Positions 8,545 through 20,946 of a stretch of 64,000 nucleotides of DNA are shown piece after piece. Source of the DNA: an uncultured beta proteobacterium (GTDB lineage Bacteria; Pseudomonadota; Gammaproteobacteria; Burkholderiales; Burkholderiaceae_C); NCBI GenBank assembly GCA_903853895.1, contig CAINUX010000106.1, forward strand, positions 1 to 64,000. Direction: 5' to 3'. The position numbers were made by a program, and so were the translations under genes. The notes beneath the pieces were generated by a model. The model worked only from the letters and a program-made list of their open reading frames with translations. It searched no databases and was not told where the DNA came from. Positions within the stretch are counted from its first letter, which is position 1, and each line of letters opens with the position of its first letter.

Positions 8545-8786
8545 ATTATAAAAATCAGACAGGATGGGTTTGCGTCAGTGCGGTCGCCTGCATTGTTGCC
8601 CGTTCTTGAGTTCGTCGCAAAAACTGCCGTCAGATTTTGTAAAAGGATAAAAACCGTCTGCTTTTGGCAACGCTTGAAACGTCTTAAAACAGAAAAAACC
8701 TTTGCGGGACAAGGAGCTTACTGATAGCATTGAAGTGATTTCTTAAGTCTGTCCGGTGCTTGACCGGTATGTTTCAGGGGACCGTT
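8545..8786. promoter_or_regulatory. Divergent promoter region between mrcA and pilM
   Basis: On the minus strand TATAAT at 8550-8545 is a perfect -10 box for mrcA, although no good -35 precedes it. On the plus strand TTGCGG (8702-8707) and TAGCAT (8725-8730) with a 17-base spacer are a possible pilM promoter. I found no sigma-54 site. No gene is visible in the region; the 128-aa plus-strand ORF at 8338 is a shadow. Confidence 0.35.
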
Positions 8787-9866
8787 TTGATCTCATTGGG
8801 GTCGTTTTTCAGTCGCCAGCCTGCTTCGATGTTCGGGCTGGATATCAGTTCCTCCAGTGTAAAGCTGGTGGAGTTGGGTCGTGACAAGGCCGGAAACCTG
8901 GTGCTGGAATGTTGCGCCATCGAGCCGCTGGAGCGGGGATGGATCACGGACGGCAATATCGAGAAATTTGAAGAAGTTGCCAACGCCTTGAAGCGTCTGG
9001 TCAAGAAGAGCGGCACCAAGACCAAGAATGTGGCCATGGCCCTGCCTCCGTCGGCCGTAATCACCAAGAAGATCGTGTTGCCAGGCGGTATGTCAGACCA
9101 GGAACTGGAACAACAGGTTGAAAATGAAGCCAACCAGTACATTCCCTTTCCGCTGGACGAAGTGAGTCTGGATTTCTGCGTGATAGGCCCTAGCGCCACA
9201 TCCGCAGGCGACGTGGAGGTGCTGATTGCAGCCTCCCGCAAAGAAAAAGTACAAGATATTCAAGGCTTGGCCGAAGCGGCCGGATTGACGCCAGTGGTTG
9301 TCGACGTTGAGTCATATGCTTCGCGCCTAGCGGCCGGACGTCTGATTGAAAACTTACCGAACAAGGGTGCCGGTTTGATTGTTGCGTTGTTTGAGGTTGG
9401 CGCGTTAACGACCAGCATGCAAGTGCTTCGCGACGACGAGGTCCTGTACGACCGGGACCAAGCGTTTGGAGGTGCCCAACTAACCCAGTTGATTGTGCGT
9501 CAATACGGTTTTTCGCAAGAAGAGGCAGAAAGCAAAAAGCGTAGCGGTGAGTTGCCTGAGGACTATGAGGCTTCAGTGCTTCGTCCGTTTATTGAAACTA
9601 TGGTCCAGGAGTTGGGCCGTGCGCTGCAGTTCTTCTTTACCAGCACGCCGCACAACAAGGTCGACTACATCATGTTGGCGGGTGGCTCTGCGGCATTGCC
9701 GGGTTTGACTGCGGCTGTTACGCAACACACCACATTCCCTTGCAACTTACTCAACCCGTTTGACGGCATGGAGATCGGGGATGGAATCCGGTTGAAGAAA
9801 ATGACCCGTGAGGCGCCGTCCTACCTGACGTCCTGCGGCTTGGCCTTGCGGAGGTTTGCGCAGTGA
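8787..9866 (+). CDS. pilM: Type IV pilus assembly ATPase-like protein PilM
   Basis: An actin/FtsA-like cytoplasmic protein that binds the N-terminus of PilN and anchors the pilus alignment complex. The sequence has FGLDISSSSVKLVEL (phosphate-1 region), an SHS2-like middle domain, and the C-terminal ATP-site motif IMLAGGSAALPGL. The ORF track starts at a TTG at 8760, but TTG at 8787 has AGGGG seven bases upstream and gives MISLGSFFSRQ, the usual family start; the length is then 359 aa. A start at ATG 8769 is not excluded. First gene of pilMNOPQ; its TGA overlaps the GTG of pilN. Confidence 0.93.
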   Translation: MISLGSFFSRQPASMFGLDISSSSVKLVELGRDKAGNLVLECCAIEPLERGWITDGNIEKFEEVANALKRLVKKSGTKTKNVAMALPPSAVITKKIVLPGGMSDQELEQQVENEANQYIPFPLDEVSLDFCVIGPSATSAGDVEVLIAASRKEKVQDIQGLAEAAGLTPVVVDVESYASRLAAGRLIENLPNKGAGLIVALFEVGALTTSMQVLRDDEVLYDRDQAFGGAQLTQLIVRQYGFSQEEAESKKRSGELPEDYEASVLRPFIETMVQELGRALQFFFTSTPHNKVDYIMLAGGSAALPGLTAAVTQHTTFPCNLLNPFDGMEIGDGIRLKKMTREAPSYLTSCGLALRRFAQ

Positions 9867-10522
9867 TTCTGATCAACCTGCTACCCCACCGCGAAGCAGC
9901 GCGCAAGCGTCGCCGTGACTTTTTCAATGTGTCATTGGGACTATCAGTGATTTTGGGTGTGCTCATCGCCGGCGCCATTTATGGGTGGTACCAAGCCGCC
10001 ATATCGGAACAGGTGAGTACCAACACAGCACTTGAAACCGAAATCAAGAAACTTGAGAGCCAAATCAAGGACATCAGCACACTCGAAGCGGAGATTGCAG
10101 CCTTGCGGGCACGCCAACAGGCTGTTGAGGATCTCCAATCTGATCGCAATTTGCCCGTGCATTTGTTGACGGAAATAGTGAATCAGCTGCCCGACGGAGT
10201 TTATGTGGCAAGAATGGTGCAGGTTGACCAGTTAGTGACAATCAATGGGGTGGCGCAGTCCAATGAGCGGGTGTCAGAGCTGCTACGTAACTTGTCCAGC
10301 AACACACCTTGGTTCTCCAAGCCCGAATTGGTTGAAATTGTGGCCGGGACAGTTGCCCTGACACCCCGCGATCAGCGGCGGGTCGCCAATTTCACAATTC
10401 GCGTGCGGCTGGTGCGTGCCAGCGAGGCGGCAAAAGCTGCGAAGTCGGCTGCAGAAGCTTCTGCTCCGCTTGGAACGGCATCCATCCCTGTAGCTGCCGC
10501 GTCGGCAGCTGTTAAGAAATAG
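9863..10522 (+). CDS. pilN: Type IV pilus inner-membrane protein PilN
   Basis: A bitopic inner-membrane protein (219 aa) of the pilus alignment subcomplex. The N-terminal INLLPHR motif that docks into PilM is at residues 3-9, followed by a transmembrane segment (about 27-47), a coiled coil with regular EIKKLESQIKDISTLEAEIAALRARQ pattern parts, and a ferredoxin-like periplasmic domain. The GTG start overlaps the pilM stop (GTGA), which implies translational coupling and fixed stoichiometry. The Ala-rich tail after about 190 is low-complexity. Confidence 0.92.
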   Translation: MILINLLPHREAARKRRRDFFNVSLGLSVILGVLIAGAIYGWYQAAISEQVSTNTALETEIKKLESQIKDISTLEAEIAALRARQQAVEDLQSDRNLPVHLLTEIVNQLPDGVYVARMVQVDQLVTINGVAQSNERVSELLRNLSSNTPWFSKPELVEIVAGTVALTPRDQRRVANFTIRVRLVRASEAAKAAKSAAEASAPLGTASIPVAAASAAVKK

Positions 10523-10532
10523 CAGGAATCTA

Positions 10533-11201
10533 ATGGCTACCAAATCTTTGGGTTCAATTGATTTTTCGCAGCTTCAGCAAACGCTGACCGAGCAATTTAG
10601 TGGGCTGGATCCGAAAGACCCTTCTTCTTGGCCTTCGATTCCGCGCTACGCGCTGTTTGCAGTGACGTCCATCGTTATCGTCGTAGCGCTGTGGTTCGCT
10701 TGGCTGGATGGGGAAAACGAAATACTGATACAAGAGCAAGCCAAAGAAGTCAAGCTCCGTGAGGACTATAAAACCAAGTTGACGAAAGCGGTCAATCTGG
10801 ACGTGCTGAAGAAACAGCGTGAACAGGTTCAACAGTATGTCACCCAGCTTGAGAAGCAGTTGCCAAGCAAGGCTGAGATGGATGCGTTGCTGTCCGATAT
10901 CAACCAGGCTGGATTGGGGCGCAGTCTGCAGTTTGACCTGTTCCGGCCAGGCCAGATCGCGGTGAAGGACTACTATGCAGAGCTACCAATCGCTATCAAA
11001 GTAACTGGTAAGTACCATGACATCGGGGCCTTTGCATCTGACATTGCGAATTTGTCGCGCATCGTTACTCTCAATAACCTCACGATATCTCCGAAGCCAG
11101 ATGGGACGTTGATTCTTGACTCAACTGCGAAGACGTTCCGCTATCTTGATAAGGACGAAGTAGCGGCGCAGAGTAAGGCTTCCAAGGGAGGCAAGAAATG
11201 A
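10533..11201 (+). CDS. pilO: Type IV pilus inner-membrane protein PilO
   Basis: Partner of PilN in the periplasmic alignment complex (222 aa). It shows a short cytoplasmic segment, one transmembrane helix (about 37-54), a coiled coil (roughly 60-110, ending VTQLEKQLPSKAEMDALL) and the ferredoxin-like domain with FRPGQIAVKDYYAELPI, a PilO hallmark. It starts ten bases after pilN, and its stop overlaps the pilP start by four bases. Confidence 0.92.
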   Translation: MATKSLGSIDFSQLQQTLTEQFSGLDPKDPSSWPSIPRYALFAVTSIVIVVALWFAWLDGENEILIQEQAKEVKLREDYKTKLTKAVNLDVLKKQREQVQQYVTQLEKQLPSKAEMDALLSDINQAGLGRSLQFDLFRPGQIAVKDYYAELPIAIKVTGKYHDIGAFASDIANLSRIVTLNNLTISPKPDGTLILDSTAKTFRYLDKDEVAAQSKASKGGKK

Positions 11202-11740
11202 GATTTTTGATCGCTTTGTCTGCCGCATGCTTGTTGTTCGCTCTCGCTGGTTGCGGTGCCTCACGGGACGATGACATTCGGCAGTGGATGTTGGAAGAGC
11301 GCAATCAGACGCGCCCCAAGGTGGACCCCATTCCCGCACCAAAACAGTTCAAGCCAGAGGCCTACACGAACGCAGCTGCAATAGAGCCCTTTAGCAAGGA
11401 AAAGCTCACTCAGGCGCTGAAGCGCGATTCTTCACAGGCCGTGGCCAACGGGGCGCTGGTAGCTCCAGAGCTGGCACGCAGGAAAGAGCCAATGGAGGCA
11501 TTTCCGCTGGACGCAATGGCATTAGTGGGAAGCATTTTCAAGGCGGGGCAGCCGGTGGCCTTGGTGAAGGTTGACAATCTTCTTTACCAAGTCAAGCAAG
11601 GCAGCTATCTCGGCCAAAACTACGGCAAGGTGATGAAAATCAGTGAAACCGAGGTTACGCTGCGTGAAATTGTGCAGGATGCAGTCGGCGAGTGGATTGA
11701 ACGGGTTGCGACGCTACAGTTGCAAGAGAGGTCTAAATGA
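11198..11740 (+). CDS. pilP: Type IV pilus lipoprotein PilP
   Basis: An inner-membrane lipoprotein (180 aa) that bridges PilN/PilO to the secretin PilQ. The signal peptide ends in lipobox LAGC (Cys19). The C-terminal beta domain contains the pattern PVALVKVDNLLYQVKQGSYLG and YGKVMKISETEVTLREIV, typical of PilP. Overlaps of four bases with pilO (ATGA at 11198) and pilQ (ATGA at 11737) indicate coupled translation. Confidence 0.92.
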   Translation: MRFLIALSAACLLFALAGCGASRDDDIRQWMLEERNQTRPKVDPIPAPKQFKPEAYTNAAAIEPFSKEKLTQALKRDSSQAVANGALVAPELARRKEPMEAFPLDAMALVGSIFKAGQPVALVKVDNLLYQVKQGSYLGQNYGKVMKISETEVTLREIVQDAVGEWIERVATLQLQERSK

Positions 11741-13887
11741 AAAATCAGAATCAGCGATTGGGTTTGCACATGTGGCATAGGCTTGTTTTTTCGGTCTTTC
11801 TTCTGTGTGGCGCGGGAGCGTACGCGCAAACCGCCATTGAAGCGGTCACCGGCTCAGTTCAGGGCGGATCGGAGGTCGTGCGTATCGACCTGACGAAGGA
11901 GCTGACAGCCGTTCCTACAGGTTTTGCCATCCAATCACCAGCACGTATTGCGCTCGATTTTCCCGGCGTCTCTAGTGCGATGGGTCGTTCGACGGTCGAA
12001 TTGAATCAAGGTAATTTGAAATCTGTAAGCGTCGTTCAAGCTGGCGAACGTACCAGGGTTGTTTTGAATTTGAAGCACCCAGCGGCATACACTGCAGAAA
12101 TCCAGGGTAAGTCTTTGCTAGTGGTGCTTGAGTCCGTGACACCCAGTACGCCGACCGCTGCCGTCGCAGCCACTTTTGCAGAAAATCGTAGCCGCGAGTC
12201 AGCACCGTTGAAGGACCTTGATTTCCGTAGGACAACTGACGGCGCCGGTCGAGTAGTAGTGACGCTGCCGAACAACCAGGTTGGTGTCGATATTCGTCAA
12301 CAAGGGCAAACACTGGTTGTGGAATTCATGAAGTCTTCGTTGCCTGAGGGGCTGCGTCGGCGCCTGGATGTGGCTGACTTTGGCACGCCCATCAAAACGG
12401 TAACCACGACACAAAGCGGGGATCGCGTGCGGATGGTGATCGAACCCACTGGCCAATGGGAACACAGTGCGTACCAAAGTGACGAGCAGTTTGTCATTGA
12501 GGTCAAGGAAATAAAGATCGACCCGAGAAAACTGACTCAAGGCGTTGGCTACACAGGCCAGAAGCTCTCGCTCAACTTCCAGAATATCGAAGTTCGATCT
12601 CTGTTGCAGGTGATCGCCGATTTCACGAATTTCAATATTGTTACGTCTGACTCGGTGTCAGGTTCCGTGACATTGCGCTTGCAGGATGTCCCATGGGATC
12701 AAGCACTGGACATCATCTTGCAGGCCAAAGGTTTGGGCCTTCGCAAGAGTGGCAATGTTCTGTGGGTTGCTCCAAAAGACGAAATCGCCGCTAAGGAGAA
12801 GTTGGATTTGGAGTCGGTGGTCGCTGTACAAGGATTGGAAGCCCTTCGGACCCAGTCTTTCCAGATTAACTATGCAAAGGCTGAAGAGATTGCTGCCTAT
12901 TTCAAAGCTGACGGCGGTGGTGAAAAGGGATCGGCACGTATTCTTAGCACGCGTGGCAGTGTGATCGCAGAAAAACGAACCAACCAGTTGTTTGTAACGG
13001 ATATTCCCAGCAAGCTCGAACAGGTTCAGCAACTTATTGCTAAATTGGACATTGCGGTTCGACAGGTCCTGATTGAAGCCCGGATTGTTGAGGCGACCGA
13101 TACATTTGGTAAGTCGTTGGGCGTGAAATTGGGCGGATATGATGCAAGAGCCAATCAAGGCGGAGATAGTGGCTATCAGGTTAACGGTGACAACCGCGTT
13201 GCGTTTGGCGCAAGCTATTTCAATGCAGCCAAGACTTCCAATGCTAATGTTGAGGGTAAATTGTTGGTATCGGGTCCGGGTGCAGAATTCTTGACTATGC
13301 CCGCAGTTGTAAACTACCCTGCGTTGTCATCGCCTGCTGCCTTCGCCGTATCCATCTTCAACGCAACTGCGAATCGATTCCTCAATCTTGAAATTTCGGC
13401 ATTGGAAGCGGATGGCAAAGGGAAAGTGGTTTCGAGTCCGCGCGTCGTTACGGCGGACCAGGTGAAAGCGACCATTGAGCAAGGGGAAGAGCTTCCCTAT
13501 CAAGTGGCCTCTGCCAGCGGCGCAACGTCGATCGCGTTCCGAAAAGCCAATTTGAAGCTGGAAGTCACACCTCAAATTACCCCCGAAGGCAGCATCATTT
13601 TGAAACTGGATGTCACAAAGGATACGGTAGGACGACTGACGACTGCGGGCTTTGCCATTGATACGAAACACATTAATACCGAGGTTCTGGTTGAGAATGG
13701 CGGGACCGTTGTGATCGGTGGTATCTACGCGGAAACGAGTAAAGAAGATGAGACGAGAGTGCCACTCCTAGGTGATTTGCCCTACGTCGGCAATTTGTTC
13801 AAGAGCAAGGTCCGTTCGACAGCGAAGCAAGAGTTGCTGGTGTTCATTACACCCAAGATGATTTCTGATCGCGGTGTGACGCGATAA
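11737..13887 (+). CDS. pilQ: Type IV pilus secretin PilQ
   Basis: The outer-membrane channel through which the pilus passes (716 aa). After a signal peptide ending AYAQ there are two AMIN-type peptidoglycan-binding regions (about 35-125 and 155-250), the N0/STN domain (NFQNIEVRSLLQVIADFTNFNIV, from about 283), an N1 domain, and a secretin domain with EARIVEATDTFGKSLGV and the C-terminal VPLLGDLPYVGNLF signature. The domain order and length are normal. Last of the five pil genes. Codon use here is visibly less GC-rich than in the neighbouring metabolic genes. Confidence 0.95.
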   Translation: MKNQNQRLGLHMWHRLVFSVFLLCGAGAYAQTAIEAVTGSVQGGSEVVRIDLTKELTAVPTGFAIQSPARIALDFPGVSSAMGRSTVELNQGNLKSVSVVQAGERTRVVLNLKHPAAYTAEIQGKSLLVVLESVTPSTPTAAVAATFAENRSRESAPLKDLDFRRTTDGAGRVVVTLPNNQVGVDIRQQGQTLVVEFMKSSLPEGLRRRLDVADFGTPIKTVTTTQSGDRVRMVIEPTGQWEHSAYQSDEQFVIEVKEIKIDPRKLTQGVGYTGQKLSLNFQNIEVRSLLQVIADFTNFNIVTSDSVSGSVTLRLQDVPWDQALDIILQAKGLGLRKSGNVLWVAPKDEIAAKEKLDLESVVAVQGLEALRTQSFQINYAKAEEIAAYFKADGGGEKGSARILSTRGSVIAEKRTNQLFVTDIPSKLEQVQQLIAKLDIAVRQVLIEARIVEATDTFGKSLGVKLGGYDARANQGGDSGYQVNGDNRVAFGASYFNAAKTSNANVEGKLLVSGPGAEFLTMPAVVNYPALSSPAAFAVSIFNATANRFLNLEISALEADGKGKVVSSPRVVTADQVKATIEQGEELPYQVASASGATSIAFRKANLKLEVTPQITPEGSIILKLDVTKDTVGRLTTAGFAIDTKHINTEVLVENGGTVVIGGIYAETSKEDETRVPLLGDLPYVGNLFKSKVRSTAKQELLVFITPKMISDRGVTR

Positions 13888-13918: not shown

Positions 13919-15154
13919 ATGCGCATCCTTTCTTACTTGACGACATTTTTAGTCGCTGTTTTACTCGCTGCCTGTGGAGGTGGAGGTGGATCACCGGGGT
14001 TGAGTTCAGGGTCGGTTTCGGCGTTGTCTGTTGCGGCACCTGCTGCGGTGACACTGCAGGTTGGTTCAACCCAGCAGTACACGGTCCAGGGTGGCGTGAA
14101 GCCCTATGTTGTCTTTAGCAGTGACCCGTCGGTGGCTGTCGGCTGGCTTGTTGGTGAAAACGTGTTCTCAATAGGGACAATCGTGGCAGGCAAAGCGACT
14201 GTTACATTGCAGGACGCGAAGGGAACCAAATTTGACATTGCTCTTGTTGCGGGTTCAAACACGGCATTTTTCACATCCATGCCGCCACTGCTGAAAATCG
14301 CCCCGGGGACTTTTGGAACGCATACGTTCATTCTGGGCGGTGGCGTGCCACCGTACAAGGCAGTTAGTGAGGTCCCGGCGGCGGTTTCGGTATCGGTTAA
14401 TGGGACTGTGTTGACGGTCACAGCCCTGCTGTCGAAGGCCGACCCGCTTCAACCACTGTCGTCAATCGTTACATTGACCGATTCTGCTCAGCAGCAAGCG
14501 GTCATTGCAAGTTCTGTGCAAACCGCTGCGGTGCTTCTTTCGGTAGCTCCGGACGCCATGACAGTGGCTCTTGGTGATGTAATTCGCGCGATCATTACTG
14601 GGGGAACGCCTCCGTACCGATTGTTGGTTGGCATTGACGACACAATTCTGTCACCAAAAATTGTTAATGGGAACCAACTGGAAGGTGTGGCGGGGCAGGT
14701 AGCCGCAGGCGCTGGTATTCGCATTATCGATTCCAATGGTATTCAGGTTGGCGTAACCGTAACCATTTCTAATATTGCGGATGTTTTGCGAGTCTCCCCA
14801 GGTGTCCTTTCGATTCCTGAGAGTGCGAGTACCCCAAGTCTTTCACTTAGCGTCTTTGGAGTTTCATCATCGGGGGGGATTCAGGTGTTTAGTAGTGACA
14901 ACAATTTCCTGAAGCCCGGCACACCTGTGAAGAATGCTGCTGGAACTGGATACGACATCCCCTTGACAGGTGGGAACACTTGCTCGGCAACTGTTGCCCC
15001 CGCTGTTGCACCTGTCGTCGGACCTCCATTTGTACCTGGGACGCCAGCTGCTGGTGGGGATAGGGTAATCACGATCACGGTTCTGGATGCCAAGGGCAGC
15101 ACCGGTACGAGCACGATTACCATCAAGGACAACAACGGCGTTGCAGGTTGCTAG
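13919..15154 (+). CDS. Uncharacterised lipoprotein with repeated Ig-like units, downstream of pilQ
   Basis: No known family is recognised with confidence. The 411-aa product has a lipoprotein signal with lipobox LAAC (Cys19) followed by a glycine run and Ser/Gly linker. Three similar units of roughly 90-100 residues follow, each opening with GGVKPY, GGVPPY or GGTPPY and ending in a beta-strand run such as ATVTLQDAKG, SIVTLTDSAQ or GIRIIDSNGI. A fourth, diverged unit ends in ITITVLDAKGSTG. This resembles bacterial Ig-like repeats, so a surface or periplasmic binding role is likely. It lies 31 bases after pilQ and 9 bases before aroK, apparently within the same transcript, which suggests but does not prove a link to pili. 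Confidence 0.6.
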   Translation: MRILSYLTTFLVAVLLAACGGGGGSPGLSSGSVSALSVAAPAAVTLQVGSTQQYTVQGGVKPYVVFSSDPSVAVGWLVGENVFSIGTIVAGKATVTLQDAKGTKFDIALVAGSNTAFFTSMPPLLKIAPGTFGTHTFILGGGVPPYKAVSEVPAAVSVSVNGTVLTVTALLSKADPLQPLSSIVTLTDSAQQQAVIASSVQTAAVLLSVAPDAMTVALGDVIRAIITGGTPPYRLLVGIDDTILSPKIVNGNQLEGVAGQVAAGAGIRIIDSNGIQVGVTVTISNIADVLRVSPGVLSIPESASTPSLSLSVFGVSSSGGIQVFSSDNNFLKPGTPVKNAAGTGYDIPLTGGNTCSATVAPAVAPVVGPPFVPGTPAAGGDRVITITVLDAKGSTGTSTITIKDNNGVAGC

Positions 15155-15163
15155 TATTGCCGC

Positions 15164-15724
15164 GTGGCATCGTTTGACAAACTGGCGCCAGACAGGGTCA
15201 CTCGCGTGATCGGTTTGGTCGGCCTACCCGGTTCCGGAAAATCCACAGTCGGGCGCCAACTCGCCCGGCGGCTGCAGCTGCCTTTTTATGATTCCGATCA
15301 CGTTATCGAAGAGCGCTTGGGTTGCCCCATCCGGGTCGCTTTTGAGCGTGATGGAGAACCAGCGTTTCGGGACTTGGAAGAAGCAGTCCTAGATGAACTG
15401 ACACAAATCCCTCGCGCGGTGATTTCAACGGGCGGTGGCGCAGTCATCCGCCCCGCGACGCGCCAGCATTTGCGGGAGCGCGGTCAAGTGGTCTACCTCA
15501 ATTCAACACCCGACGAAATTTTTCGGCGGCTTCGGCACGACGTGAACCGTCCCCTTCTGCAGGTGGCAGATCCGTTGAGCCGACTGCGCGACCTGTATGC
15601 GCAGCGGGACCCGCTTTACCGCGAAACGGCGCACTTTGTCATTGAAACCGGTCGCCCGTCTGTGGCAACCCTGGTCAATATGATCGTGATGCAACTGGAA
15701 CTGTCTGGGGTGACTCTAAACTAG
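15164..15724 (+). CDS. aroK: Shikimate kinase
   Basis: Phosphorylates shikimate at the 3-hydroxyl in aromatic amino acid synthesis. The 186-aa protein has Walker A GLPGSGKST (20-28), the shikimate-binding DSD at 43-45, RDLEE, and STGGGAV (the GGG loop), then the lid region with RPLL. The start is a GTG at 15164, only 9 bases after the preceding stop; the N-terminal extension before VIGLVG is about 15 residues. aroK-aroB pairing downstream of pilQ is conserved in proteobacteria. Confidence 0.94.
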   Translation: MASFDKLAPDRVTRVIGLVGLPGSGKSTVGRQLARRLQLPFYDSDHVIEERLGCPIRVAFERDGEPAFRDLEEAVLDELTQIPRAVISTGGGAVIRPATRQHLRERGQVVYLNSTPDEIFRRLRHDVNRPLLQVADPLSRLRDLYAQRDPLYRETAHFVIETGRPSVATLVNMIVMQLELSGVTLN

Positions 15725-15730
15725 CAGGCT

Positions 15731-16840
15731 ATGCAAGCAACGAATTCCACGTCAAGCGTCACCATTGAATTGGGTGATCGCAGTTACCCTATTCATATTT
15801 CTTCCGGGCTGCTGTCCGATCCCGAAACCTTCGAAGCTTTGCCTGCTGGTGCAAGTGCGATGATCGTGACCAACGTGACGGTCGGGCCCTTGTACGGGCA
15901 GAGCCTGAAGAGCACACTGGAACGCCACTACAAAACAGTCCATGTTGTGACACTGCCAGACGGGGAATCGTACAAAAACTGGGAAACTCTGAATCTGATT
16001 TTTGATGCTTTGCTGGGCCACGCATGTGACCGCAAGACCGTGCTATTTGCCTTGGGTGGCGGTGTGATCGGCGACATGACCGGCTACGCGGCCGCAAGCT
16101 ACATGCGCGGAGTGCCCTTTGTGCAGGTGCCCACTACCTTGTTGTCGCAGGTGGATTCATCGGTTGGGGGAAAGACTGGCATCAACCACCCGATGGGCAA
16201 GAACATGATTGGTGCCTTCTATCAGCCCCAACTCGTGGTGTGTGATCTGAACACACTGAAGACCTTGCCAGCGCGTGAACTCAGCGCGGGCCTGGCTGAG
16301 GTCATCAAGTACGGGCCGATTGCAGATCTCGCATTTCTGGACTGGATTGAAGCCAATATGGATCGCTTGCTGGCGCGCGATGTCGAGTCGCTGGCCTATG
16401 CGGTGAAGCGCAGCTGCGAGATCAAGGCCTGGGTTGTAGGACAGGACGAGCGGGAATCCGGGATACGCGCCATCCTCAATTTTGGACATACTTTCGGCCA
16501 TGCCATCGAGGCCGGCATGGGTTACGGCAATTGGTTGCACGGCGAGGCAGTCGGCTGCGGCATGGTGATGGCGGCGCAACTCTCCCATGAACTGGGTCTG
16601 GTTGACGGCGATTTTGTCAAACGACTACGTACATTGGTTCAGCGGGCCGGGTTGCCCACGATTGGCCCGCGGTTGGACGCCAACGACAACGCCGGTCGCT
16701 ATCTGGACCTGATGCGCGTGGACAAGAAAGCCGAAGGAGGGGAAATCCGGTTTGTACTGATCGACGGTCCAGCCCACGCGACTGTGCGCGGCGCGTCGGA
16801 TGCAGTGGTGCGTCGCGTGATTGATGTGTGCACCGCCTGA
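15731..16840 (+). CDS. aroB: 3-dehydroquinate synthase
   Basis: Converts DAHP to 3-dehydroquinate, the second step of the shikimate pathway, using NAD and a divalent metal. The 369-aa protein contains the NAD-binding [19 protein letters not shown] region, the [19 protein letters not shown] block, and metal ligands in [24 protein letters not shown] and [11 protein letters not shown]. The ATG is six bases after the aroK stop, so the genes are co-transcribed. The order aroK then aroB is usual, and the product upstream of dgt is typical for this group. Confidence 0.95.
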
Positions 16841-19355: not shown

Positions 19356-20263
19356 AACAGCACAAGCCCCGTTCGAATGCAGCTGCAGTTCCAGCGGCGG
19401 GCAAAACTGTGCCCGCCCACCCTCTGGCCGACGAAGTGCGCCCCGGCCAGAGTGTGGAACTGCTCAAGGAACTGCACATCCTCACCCGCGAGGGCAAGCT
19501 CAACCAGGATTCCAGGCGTAAGCTCAAGCAGGTCTACCACCTGTACCAGTTCATCGAAAAGCTGTTGCTGGAGCTGCCGCAAGGCGGTGAGGGCGCCACG
19601 TTGGCGGACCATGGCGCGGGCAAGTCGTATTTGGGTTTCATCATTTACGACCTCTTTTTCAAGAGCCTGCACAGCGGCCATATCTACGGCATCGAAACCC
19701 GGCCGGAGCTGGTGCAGAAATCCCGCGAGCTGGCTGCACGTTTGGGGTTCGAGAGAATGTCGTTTCTGAATCTCAGCGTGGCCGAGTCCACCGCGTCCGA
19801 TGCATTGCCAGATCAGATCGACGTGGTTACCGCCCTGCACGCCTGCGACACCGCAACCGACGACGCGATCGCCTTCGGGTTGAAAAAACAGGCACGTTAC
19901 CTCGTATTGGTACCGTGCTGCCAAGCCGAAATCGCCCGCTGCCTGAACGCCAATAAGGCTTTGTCGCTGCGCCGCACGCCGCTGGCCGAGTTGTGGCGCC
20001 ACCCGCTGCACACGCGCGAGATGGGCAGCCAGATCACCAACGTGCTGCGCTGCCTGTACCTGGAGGCCAGTGGTTACCAGGTCACTGTGACCGAGCTGGT
20101 CGGCTGGGAGCACAGCATGAAGAACGAGCTCATCATCGCGCGGCGCACCGGCAAGCCCAACCACGCGGCGGCCCAGCGCCTGCAGTCGTTGTTGGCAGAG
20201 TTTGGCCTGACGGCGCTGATGGACACTCGCTTTTTGCTGCCATGGCCCGCCTTCCCCGCCTGA
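19352..20263 (+). CDS. SAM-dependent methyltransferase, 3' end overlapped by a transposase gene
   Basis: A class I methyltransferase-like protein (303 aa). The SAM-binding glycine loop is LADHGAGKSYLG, the acidic end of strand 2 lies in YGIETRPELV, and VLVPCCQAEI and ALHACDTATDDAI are typical of the family that includes human METTL25-like or trmO-unrelated Methyltransf_32 proteins. The substrate is unknown. The last 22 bases overlap the start of the transposase gene at 20242, so the C-terminal residues (LLPWPAFPA) may have been created when that element arrived. The ATG overlaps the DUF1415 stop. Confidence 0.75.
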   Translation: MKQHKPRSNAAAVPAAGKTVPAHPLADEVRPGQSVELLKELHILTREGKLNQDSRRKLKQVYHLYQFIEKLLLELPQGGEGATLADHGAGKSYLGFIIYDLFFKSLHSGHIYGIETRPELVQKSRELAARLGFERMSFLNLSVAESTASDALPDQIDVVTALHACDTATDDAIAFGLKKQARYLVLVPCCQAEIARCLNANKALSLRRTPLAELWRHPLHTREMGSQITNVLRCLYLEASGYQVTVTELVGWEHSMKNELIIARRTGKPNHAAAQRLQSLLAEFGLTALMDTRFLLPWPAFPA

Positions 20264-20946
20264 CTCTGCCGGGTCATCCCCACCACATCATCCAGCGGGG
20301 CAACAACCGCCAGGCCATCTTTGCCACGGCGGCGGACCGCCAGATGATGCTGGACCTGCTGGACGAGAATGCCCGCAAGTTCGGTGTGGCCGTCCACGCC
20401 TATGTGCTGATGGACAACCACTTCCACCTGCTTGTCACGCCCCAGACCTTGGATGGTCTGCCGCAGATGATGCAGGCCGTCGGCCGACGCTATGTGCGCT
20501 ACTTCAACGACAGCCAGCAACGCAGTGGCACCCTGTGGGAAGGGCGCTACAAATCCACGCTGATCCAGACCGAACGCTTCCTGCTGGCCTGCATGGCCTA
20601 CATCGACCTCAACCCGGTGCGGGCCGGCATGGTGGCGCAGGCGCGGGACTACCCGTGGTCCAGCCACGCGCATTACATCGGGTTGCGCATAGACAAGCTG
20701 CTCACGCCCCACCCACTGGTCTGGGCCCTGGGCAACACCCCGTTTGCACGTGAAGCCGCCTACGCTGAATTGGTGCAGGCGGGCATCAGCGCGGGGCAGC
20801 AGCAGGCACTGACGGACTCGGCTTTGCGCGGCTGGGCCCTAGGCGAGCCCGATTTTGTAAAAAATCTACAAAAGATGACGGCGCGCAGGGTGTCAAAAAG
20901 TACGGCTGGGCGTCCGCTGGCAGCCAAAACACCATTGACGAAATAG
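20242..20946 (+). mobile_element. REP-associated tyrosine transposase (Y1/HUH family) gene
   Basis: A single-copy-type transposase of the IS200/IS605-like RAYT group (234 aa). The HUH motif is DNHFHLLV (His60, His62), and the candidate nucleophile tyrosine is in RRYVRYFN (Tyr84 or Tyr87). The opening MARLPRLTLPGHPHHIIQRG and the block FLLACMAYIDLNPVRAG are characteristic. The ORF track extends upstream to 19993, but that part is the methyltransferase in another frame. RAYTs are domesticated transposases that mobilise REP hairpins. A matching hairpin lies downstream at 21029-21055. No terminal inverted repeats or accessory gene are seen. Confidence 0.88.

Follow-up and report, generated by a model that had tools for sequence, protein, structure and literature searches.

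A fast-changing Ig-like lipoprotein encoded between pilQ and aroK as a candidate accessory of the type IV pilus secretin

What is the lipoprotein gene that stands between pilQ, the gene of the type IV pilus secretin, and aroK in this uncultured beta proteobacterium, and is its product connected with the pilus? The gene lies in a stretch of DNA of 64,000 nucleotides, here called the window. A preliminary description of this DNA had proposed an Ig-like repeat lipoprotein that was inserted into a row of genes and could interact with the pilus secretin. In the present study, the interval between pilQ and aroK, here called the slot, was analysed together with the neighbouring PilQ in the window and in its relatives. 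The features of the window are as follows (residues are those of the protein named).

8760 to 11740, plus strand: row of pilM, pilN, pilO and pilP, upstream; open reading frames, PilP by Pfam, pilM, pilN and pilO by position and sequence.
11737 to 13887, plus strand: pilQ, type IV pilus secretin; Pfam Secretin, AMIN and STN, and PilQ relatives in the PDB.
13138 to 13275, plus strand: predicted apical segment of PilQ, residues 468-513, YDARANQGGDSGYQVNGDNRVAFG...; covaries with slot occupancy (mutual information, tree test and held-out test).
13372 to 13374, plus strand: PilQ N546; also covaries with slot occupancy.
13919 to 15154, plus strand: slot lipoprotein, open reading frame of 411 aa, ATG start, complete; relatives likewise placed in G047, G003 and another Rhodoferax sp. 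MAG.
13919 to 13975, plus strand: signal peptide and lipobox LAAC, residues 1-19, predicted from sequence.
13973 to 14017, plus strand: lipidated Cys and Gly/Ser tether CGGGGGSPGLSSGS, residues 19-33, predicted from sequence.
14033 to 14272, plus strand: Ig-like unit 1, residues 39-118, GGVKPY; HMM 5e-20, model pLDDT 88, Foldseek.
14291 to 14527, plus strand: Ig-like unit 2, residues 125-203, GGVPPY; HMM 1e-8.
14543 to 14773, plus strand: Ig-like unit 3, residues 209-285, GGTPPY; HMM 1e-10.
14786 to 15151, plus strand: divergent C-terminal unit, residues 290-411, ending ITVLDAKG..TSTITIKDNNGVAGC; weak HMM match at residues 385-408 (0.06).
15164 to 15724, plus strand: aroK, downstream; open reading frame, shikimate kinase by Pfam.
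15731 to 16840, plus strand: aroB, downstream of aroK; open reading frame, named by position and sequence.

The place of the gene within the pil row was borne out, with pilP, pilQ and aroK recognized by Pfam. Between the pilQ stop and the slot reading frame lie 31 bp, and 9 bp separate the end of the frame from the called start of aroK; pilM-pilN-pilO-pilP-pilQ, the slot gene, aroK and aroB all lie on one strand (+). The pilQ-aroK interval was scanned for terminators and sigma-70 promoters, and only weak matches near background were obtained. Judged by the spacing of the genes, on which the operon structure rests, the slot gene is likely co-transcribed with the pil genes. Genes for PilY1 and PilT were found in the window genome (G000), including four PilT-family ATPases above the NCBIfam cut-off (contigs C84, C145 and C154), two of them adjacent on C84. 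Because the genome carries these PilY1 and PilT-type genes, a working pilus is plausible. Further along the window, at 20109-20946 (+), a reading frame with MARLPRLTLPGHPHHIIQRGNNRQAIF... resembles a REP-associated tyrosine transposase.

The slot product has the lipobox LAAC at residues 16-19, followed by GGGGGSPGLSSGS, and a tether GGGGGSPG; with LAACGGGGG at residues 16-24 and no Asp at +2, it is a predicted lipoprotein. A tether of the CGGG(GG) type is present in nearly all slot proteins. The Gly tether was ruled out as a signature of the slot, as it occurs also on other lipoproteins of these genomes. A search of G000 for the Slam exporter (PF04575) gave no match, and control searches matched nothing either.

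The sequences GGVKPY, GGVPPY and GGTPPY are found at residues 58, 141 and 228. A repeat HMM made of 38 GGxPY units, all from proteins other than the window protein, recovered the three units listed above at their E-values and a trace or tail of a fourth at residues 385-408, and the best of 200 composition-matched shuffles used as control scored 0.27. No repeats were found at the DNA level in the slot gene, and therefore the repeat units must be old and have diverged long ago. Unit 1, modelled with a shallow alignment of 9 units, gave a 7-strand beta sandwich (pLDDT 88, pTM 0.75). The best matches of this model in the PDB by Foldseek were bacterial or phage Ig-like domains (4uid, 2l04, 2mh4 and 2mqg, TM range 0.73-0.78), among them SbsC (0.78), the lambda tail tube (0.75) and Leptospira Big domains (0.73). 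The modelled fold thus supports the Ig-like label and agrees with the fold of the Big superfamily. AlphaFold modelling of the whole protein from 3 sequences gave a poor result (pLDDT 49); the Foldseek matches to this model, cadherins among them and of low TM, were set aside. With the lipobox, the tether, the three HMM units and the model of unit 1, the earlier reading of an Ig-like repeat lipoprotein held; of the checks named for it, repeat detection returned a repeat signal and structure prediction an Ig-like fold for unit 1.

Profile searches for bacterial Ig-like domains gave a divided answer, with no Pfam match in the window protein but matches in many relatives. The window protein matched no Pfam family at E up to 1, neither the Big_1 (PF02369) nor the T2SS-T3SS_pil_N (PF13629) profile, no PDB sequence, and in NCBIfam nothing except one signal-peptide match below the cut-off. 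LysM, TPR and SPOR domains were not found in it by Pfam, nor LysM or TPR in the relatives scanned. Most of the longer slot relatives match Big_1, many of them above the Pfam cut-off, and like the stalks of the invasin and intimin type they have stacked Ig-like domains outside a membrane anchor. The window protein differs from such stalks by the missing Big_1 match, by a lipid anchor in place of a beta-barrel and by its position in the pil row. The GGxPY repeats of relatives (L057, L065, L080 and L108) match PF13629, and among Big_2-like and related Ig domains modelled unit 1 resembles those of Leptospira Big, SbsC and the lambda tail tube; the window repeats do not reach the Pfam model, however, and stand in a lipoprotein and not at the N-terminus of a secretin.

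To see how far the arrangement extends, aroK was located in relatives and the DNA was read back to pilQ. A lipoprotein reading frame between the two genes was present in 72 of 137 loci of the GTDB family of the window, families and genera being GTDB groups and many of the genomes MAGs of varying completeness. In the genus of the window (Rhodoferax), 19 of the 49 loci with both genes were occupied, the window included, as were 42 of 72 loci in other genera of the family; linkage to the type IV pilus locus is accordingly seen in many genera. Unoccupied loci nearly all have gaps of 250 bp or less, and one (L104) has a 351-bp gap without a reading frame. Outside the family, the slot lipoprotein was found in none of 32 loci from other families of the order and in none of 24 from other families of the class with pilQ next to aroK, a further 5 loci of the class survey not being judgeable with 1.5 kb flanks. 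The statement that pilQ normally stands directly before aroK was therefore right for other families, but it fails at about half of this family's loci; the survey called for earlier found the gene to be recurrent in the family. The word "inserted", in the sense of a local oddity, does not fit these counts. By sequence comparison, the slot lipoprotein is a family-wide feature that has been repeatedly lost and replaced.

The closest relatives of the window protein have about 50-59% identity and occupy the corresponding position; they are from G047, G003 and one more Rhodoferax sp. MAG. When contigs were scanned with the single window protein as query, no relative was found; scanning with an alignment returned two Rhodoferax MAGs. 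A Cytophagales match to the slot-protein alignment was doubtful (20% identity) and was not used. All slot reading frames inspected with a complete N-terminus, L301 included, have a lipobox, and in nearly all of them several glycines come next. In one locus (L173, 3422-7295), the slot contains a tandem of two lipoprotein genes that differ from each other.

The slot proteins are highly variable, with lengths from 110 to 1303 aa. The longer ones combine Big_1 domains with either of two conserved C-terminal modules, and the window protein and its closest relatives belong to a short type with GGxPY repeats only. In an alignment of slot proteins from L185, L158 and others, a C-terminal module contains the conserved sequence NEDxNRNGxLDxGEDxNGNGxLxP, which resembles calcium loops of the EF-hand or dockerin type and is absent from the window protein. 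Between L099 and L101, PilQ is 94% and AroK 95% identical, but the slot proteins, of different classes, are only 24% identical; their DNA is similar through pilQ, in one 96-bp signal-peptide patch, and then again from aroK. The same contrast is found between L085 and L087 (PilQ 86, AroK 93, slot 34%), between the window and L056 (PilQ 89, AroK 83, slot 59%) and between the window and L058 (PilQ 91, AroK 80, slot 52%), and L092 and L094 are a conserved pair (PilQ 90, AroK 94, slot 90%). From these identities beside constant neighbours, it follows that the occupant changes by replacement and by repeat or domain change, while the anchor and the neighbours stay.

Such a pattern raises the question of whether the pilQ-aroK gap is simply tolerant of insertions and collects lipoprotein genes as passengers. 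The replacement of occupants and a patchy presence, with at least 13 changes of occupancy forced by supported tree branches, would agree with this. A tolerant gap does not account for contents that, in the loci examined, are almost always one lipoprotein reading frame and never another kind of gene, for occupation in this family only, or for the association with a PilQ motif given below, and we consider the passenger explanation hardly credible.

PilQ was compared between 60 occupied and 54 empty loci. Its median length is 720 aa in occupied and 705 aa in empty loci. The 30 columns most informative on occupancy all fall in residues 468-513 (window numbering), apart from N546; Asn stands at this position in 58 of the 60 occupied loci and in 17 of the 54 empty ones. 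Over residues 468-513 the mutual information averages 0.333, against 0.16 in the flanking residues 514-560 and about 0.10 in most other regions; the AMIN, N0 and N3 regions do not covary with the slot. The entropy of the segment is 1.94 bits in occupied and 2.61 bits in empty loci, other regions differing little, and in empty loci the segment is mostly shortened or scrambled. Linkage of pilQ to the slot as the sole cause was rejected, since residues 561-716 lie nearer to the slot and show no excess (about 0.10). A motif rule, at least three of D469, R471, G476 and Y/F/W480, holds for 58 of the 60 occupied loci and for 9 of the 54 empty ones.

For the effect of common descent, a tree was built quickly from AroK and PilQ without the segment; good support was obtained for 46 of its 111 inner branches. 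Among 13 independent pairs of loci differing in occupancy, the motif changed in the same direction in about 10 and in the opposite direction in 0.1 (median p 0.002). Run in reverse, the pair test gave 11 against 0.1; the motif columns had been picked on the same 114 sequences, a circularity from which the held-out set is free. As the independent pairs agree, phylogeny does not explain the covariation away. In the held-out set, 16 of 20 fresh loci had PilQ nearby and 11 of these were occupied; the rule, left unchanged, gave the correct prediction for 15 of the 16 (10 occupied with the motif, 5 empty without it, and 1 occupied without it), a figure from a small set and without phylogenetic correction. 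Occupied loci without the motif number three in all. Of the empty loci, nine retain the motif, and four of these form one clade. When their genomes and controls were searched with two profiles, no full homologue was found, only short N-terminal matches to unrelated lipoproteins with a Gly tether, and no lipoprotein remnants were visible in their slots; for these reasons the nine loci look like later losses. Evolutionary coupling with a type IV pilus component is thus found at PilQ residues 468-513, and the earlier suggestion that the lipoprotein could interact with the secretin gains indirect support from it.

The position of this segment in the secretin bears on how the two proteins may be related. 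On alignment to the type II secretion (T2SS) secretin 6hcg, PilQ residues 420-500 correspond to 320-397 and residues 530-713 to 398-595, and by alignment to solved secretins residues 468 to about 540 fall between the end of N3 and the rest of the secretin domain. By homology with other secretins, residues 468-513 would fall in the apical, outward region. TsaP and the pilotins (PilF/PilW/Tgl) are known helpers of PilQ, with LysM in TsaP and TPR in PilF/PilW. In the T2SS secretin, the apical region varies greatly and bears the top gate, an optional feature above the outer membrane (PMC10550240). The PilQ segment from 468 to about 540 is likewise a variable, optional outward part, although the top gate has been described as a permeability feature and not as a site for a partner (PMC10550240).

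An outer-membrane type lipoprotein beside pilQ could be a periplasm-facing helper that, as pilotins or TsaP do, aids the assembly of PilQ or anchors it to peptidoglycan. Like TsaP and the pilotins, which serve PilQ, the slot protein is an envelope protein. It has no TPR, LysM or SPOR domain by Pfam, however, it covaries with the apical and not with the periplasmic AMIN, N0 or N3 parts, and such variability would be unexpected in an assembly factor, so that a helper of this kind is very unlikely. The lipoprotein might instead be exported through PilQ as a substrate, with the apical region tuned to release it or hold it at the surface; a gene adjoining that of the secretin and covariation in the outward region of the pore would suit this. 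But very different folded bodies would need a common signal, L099 and L101 share the N-terminus only, and a search of the literature yielded no case of this for a type IV pilus secretin. We judge export through PilQ to be distinctly improbable.

Related proteins occur also away from pil genes. Lipoproteins of about 1050-1070 aa with many GGxPY repeats are encoded at non-pil loci in L107 (217-3426, G009:C95), beside an amtB-like and a comM-like gene, and in L108 (1660-4809, G022:C28). Their tether after the lipid Cys is CGGASNRDQ or CGGATNREQ and not CGGGGG. By eye, the C-terminus of the window protein resembles theirs, and for this reason the short type may have moved between loci. One genome with an occupied slot encodes a second slot-type protein away from the pil locus (L275, G128:C99), and the matched stretch of this second protein has one in-frame TGA. 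In L259 (G082, of another family of the order), two adjacent lipoproteins with similar GGxxxY Ig-like repeats adjoin a putative glutamate synthase gene and are not at the pilQ-aroK place of that genome. Presence unrelated to pil genes, which had been named as an argument against a pilus connection, thus holds for the repeat domain, which L107 and L108 show not to be pil-specific, although the slot is.

These proteins, and the hypervariability of the slot that is typical of exposed proteins, would also agree with a surface adhesin or decoy merely co-expressed with the pilus, the PilQ segment and the lipoprotein answering the same outside pressure (e.g., pilus phages or habitat) without touching. 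The PilQ motif is conserved across many genera despite very different Ig parts, which suits a constant interface better than an arms race common to both proteins, and we regard such a response without contact as rather unlikely. The reading that we favour, by a narrow measure of confidence, is that the slot gene encodes a fast-changing Ig-stalk lipoprotein of the outer membrane, an accessory of the type IV pilus that acts at the outer rim of PilQ. The lipoprotein would be made together with PilMNOPQ, be anchored in the outer membrane beside the secretin and meet the PilQ ring at its outward rim by way of a feature that all slot proteins have. Since very different Ig bodies share one PilQ motif, this contact should be the anchor and tether or the generic Ig fold. 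The variable Ig domains would be projected at the exit of the pilus, where they would probably act as an adhesive or shielding collar, and surfaces, competitors or pilus phages may supply the diversifying pressure. More tentatively, it is possible that the lipoprotein is a hitherto unrecognised, family-specific subunit of the pilus machine, a lipid-anchored Ig collar on the outward rim of PilQ whose domains are swapped wholesale while the docking segment of PilQ is conserved.

At the outward end of PilQ, the pilus, DNA and pilus phages come into contact with the outside. What covers this end is an open question, and unassigned extracellular densities over PilQ have been described as a "crown" in T. 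thermophilus and as bumps in M. xanthus (PMC7545093). The place proposed for the slot protein is, like that of these densities, on the outward end of the secretin, but the densities are from different bacteria. That a lipoprotein of the slot type is the kind of protein behind densities over other PilQ secretins is only an idea. A fixed slot with covariation in PilQ was not found in the open-access literature searched, the domain types themselves being known. The covariation gives a precise candidate interface, PilQ D469/R471/G476/Y480 and the lipoprotein, together with natural pairs with and without the gene, and the slot offers an example of how alleles are replaced at one locus while the proposed partner stays constant. 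If the proposed role is true, then in a large environmental family about half of the sampled loci encode an additional, rapidly changing component of the pilus pore, which profile libraries would see at best as generic Ig-like domains, and the pore in these bacteria would have a variable "face plate".
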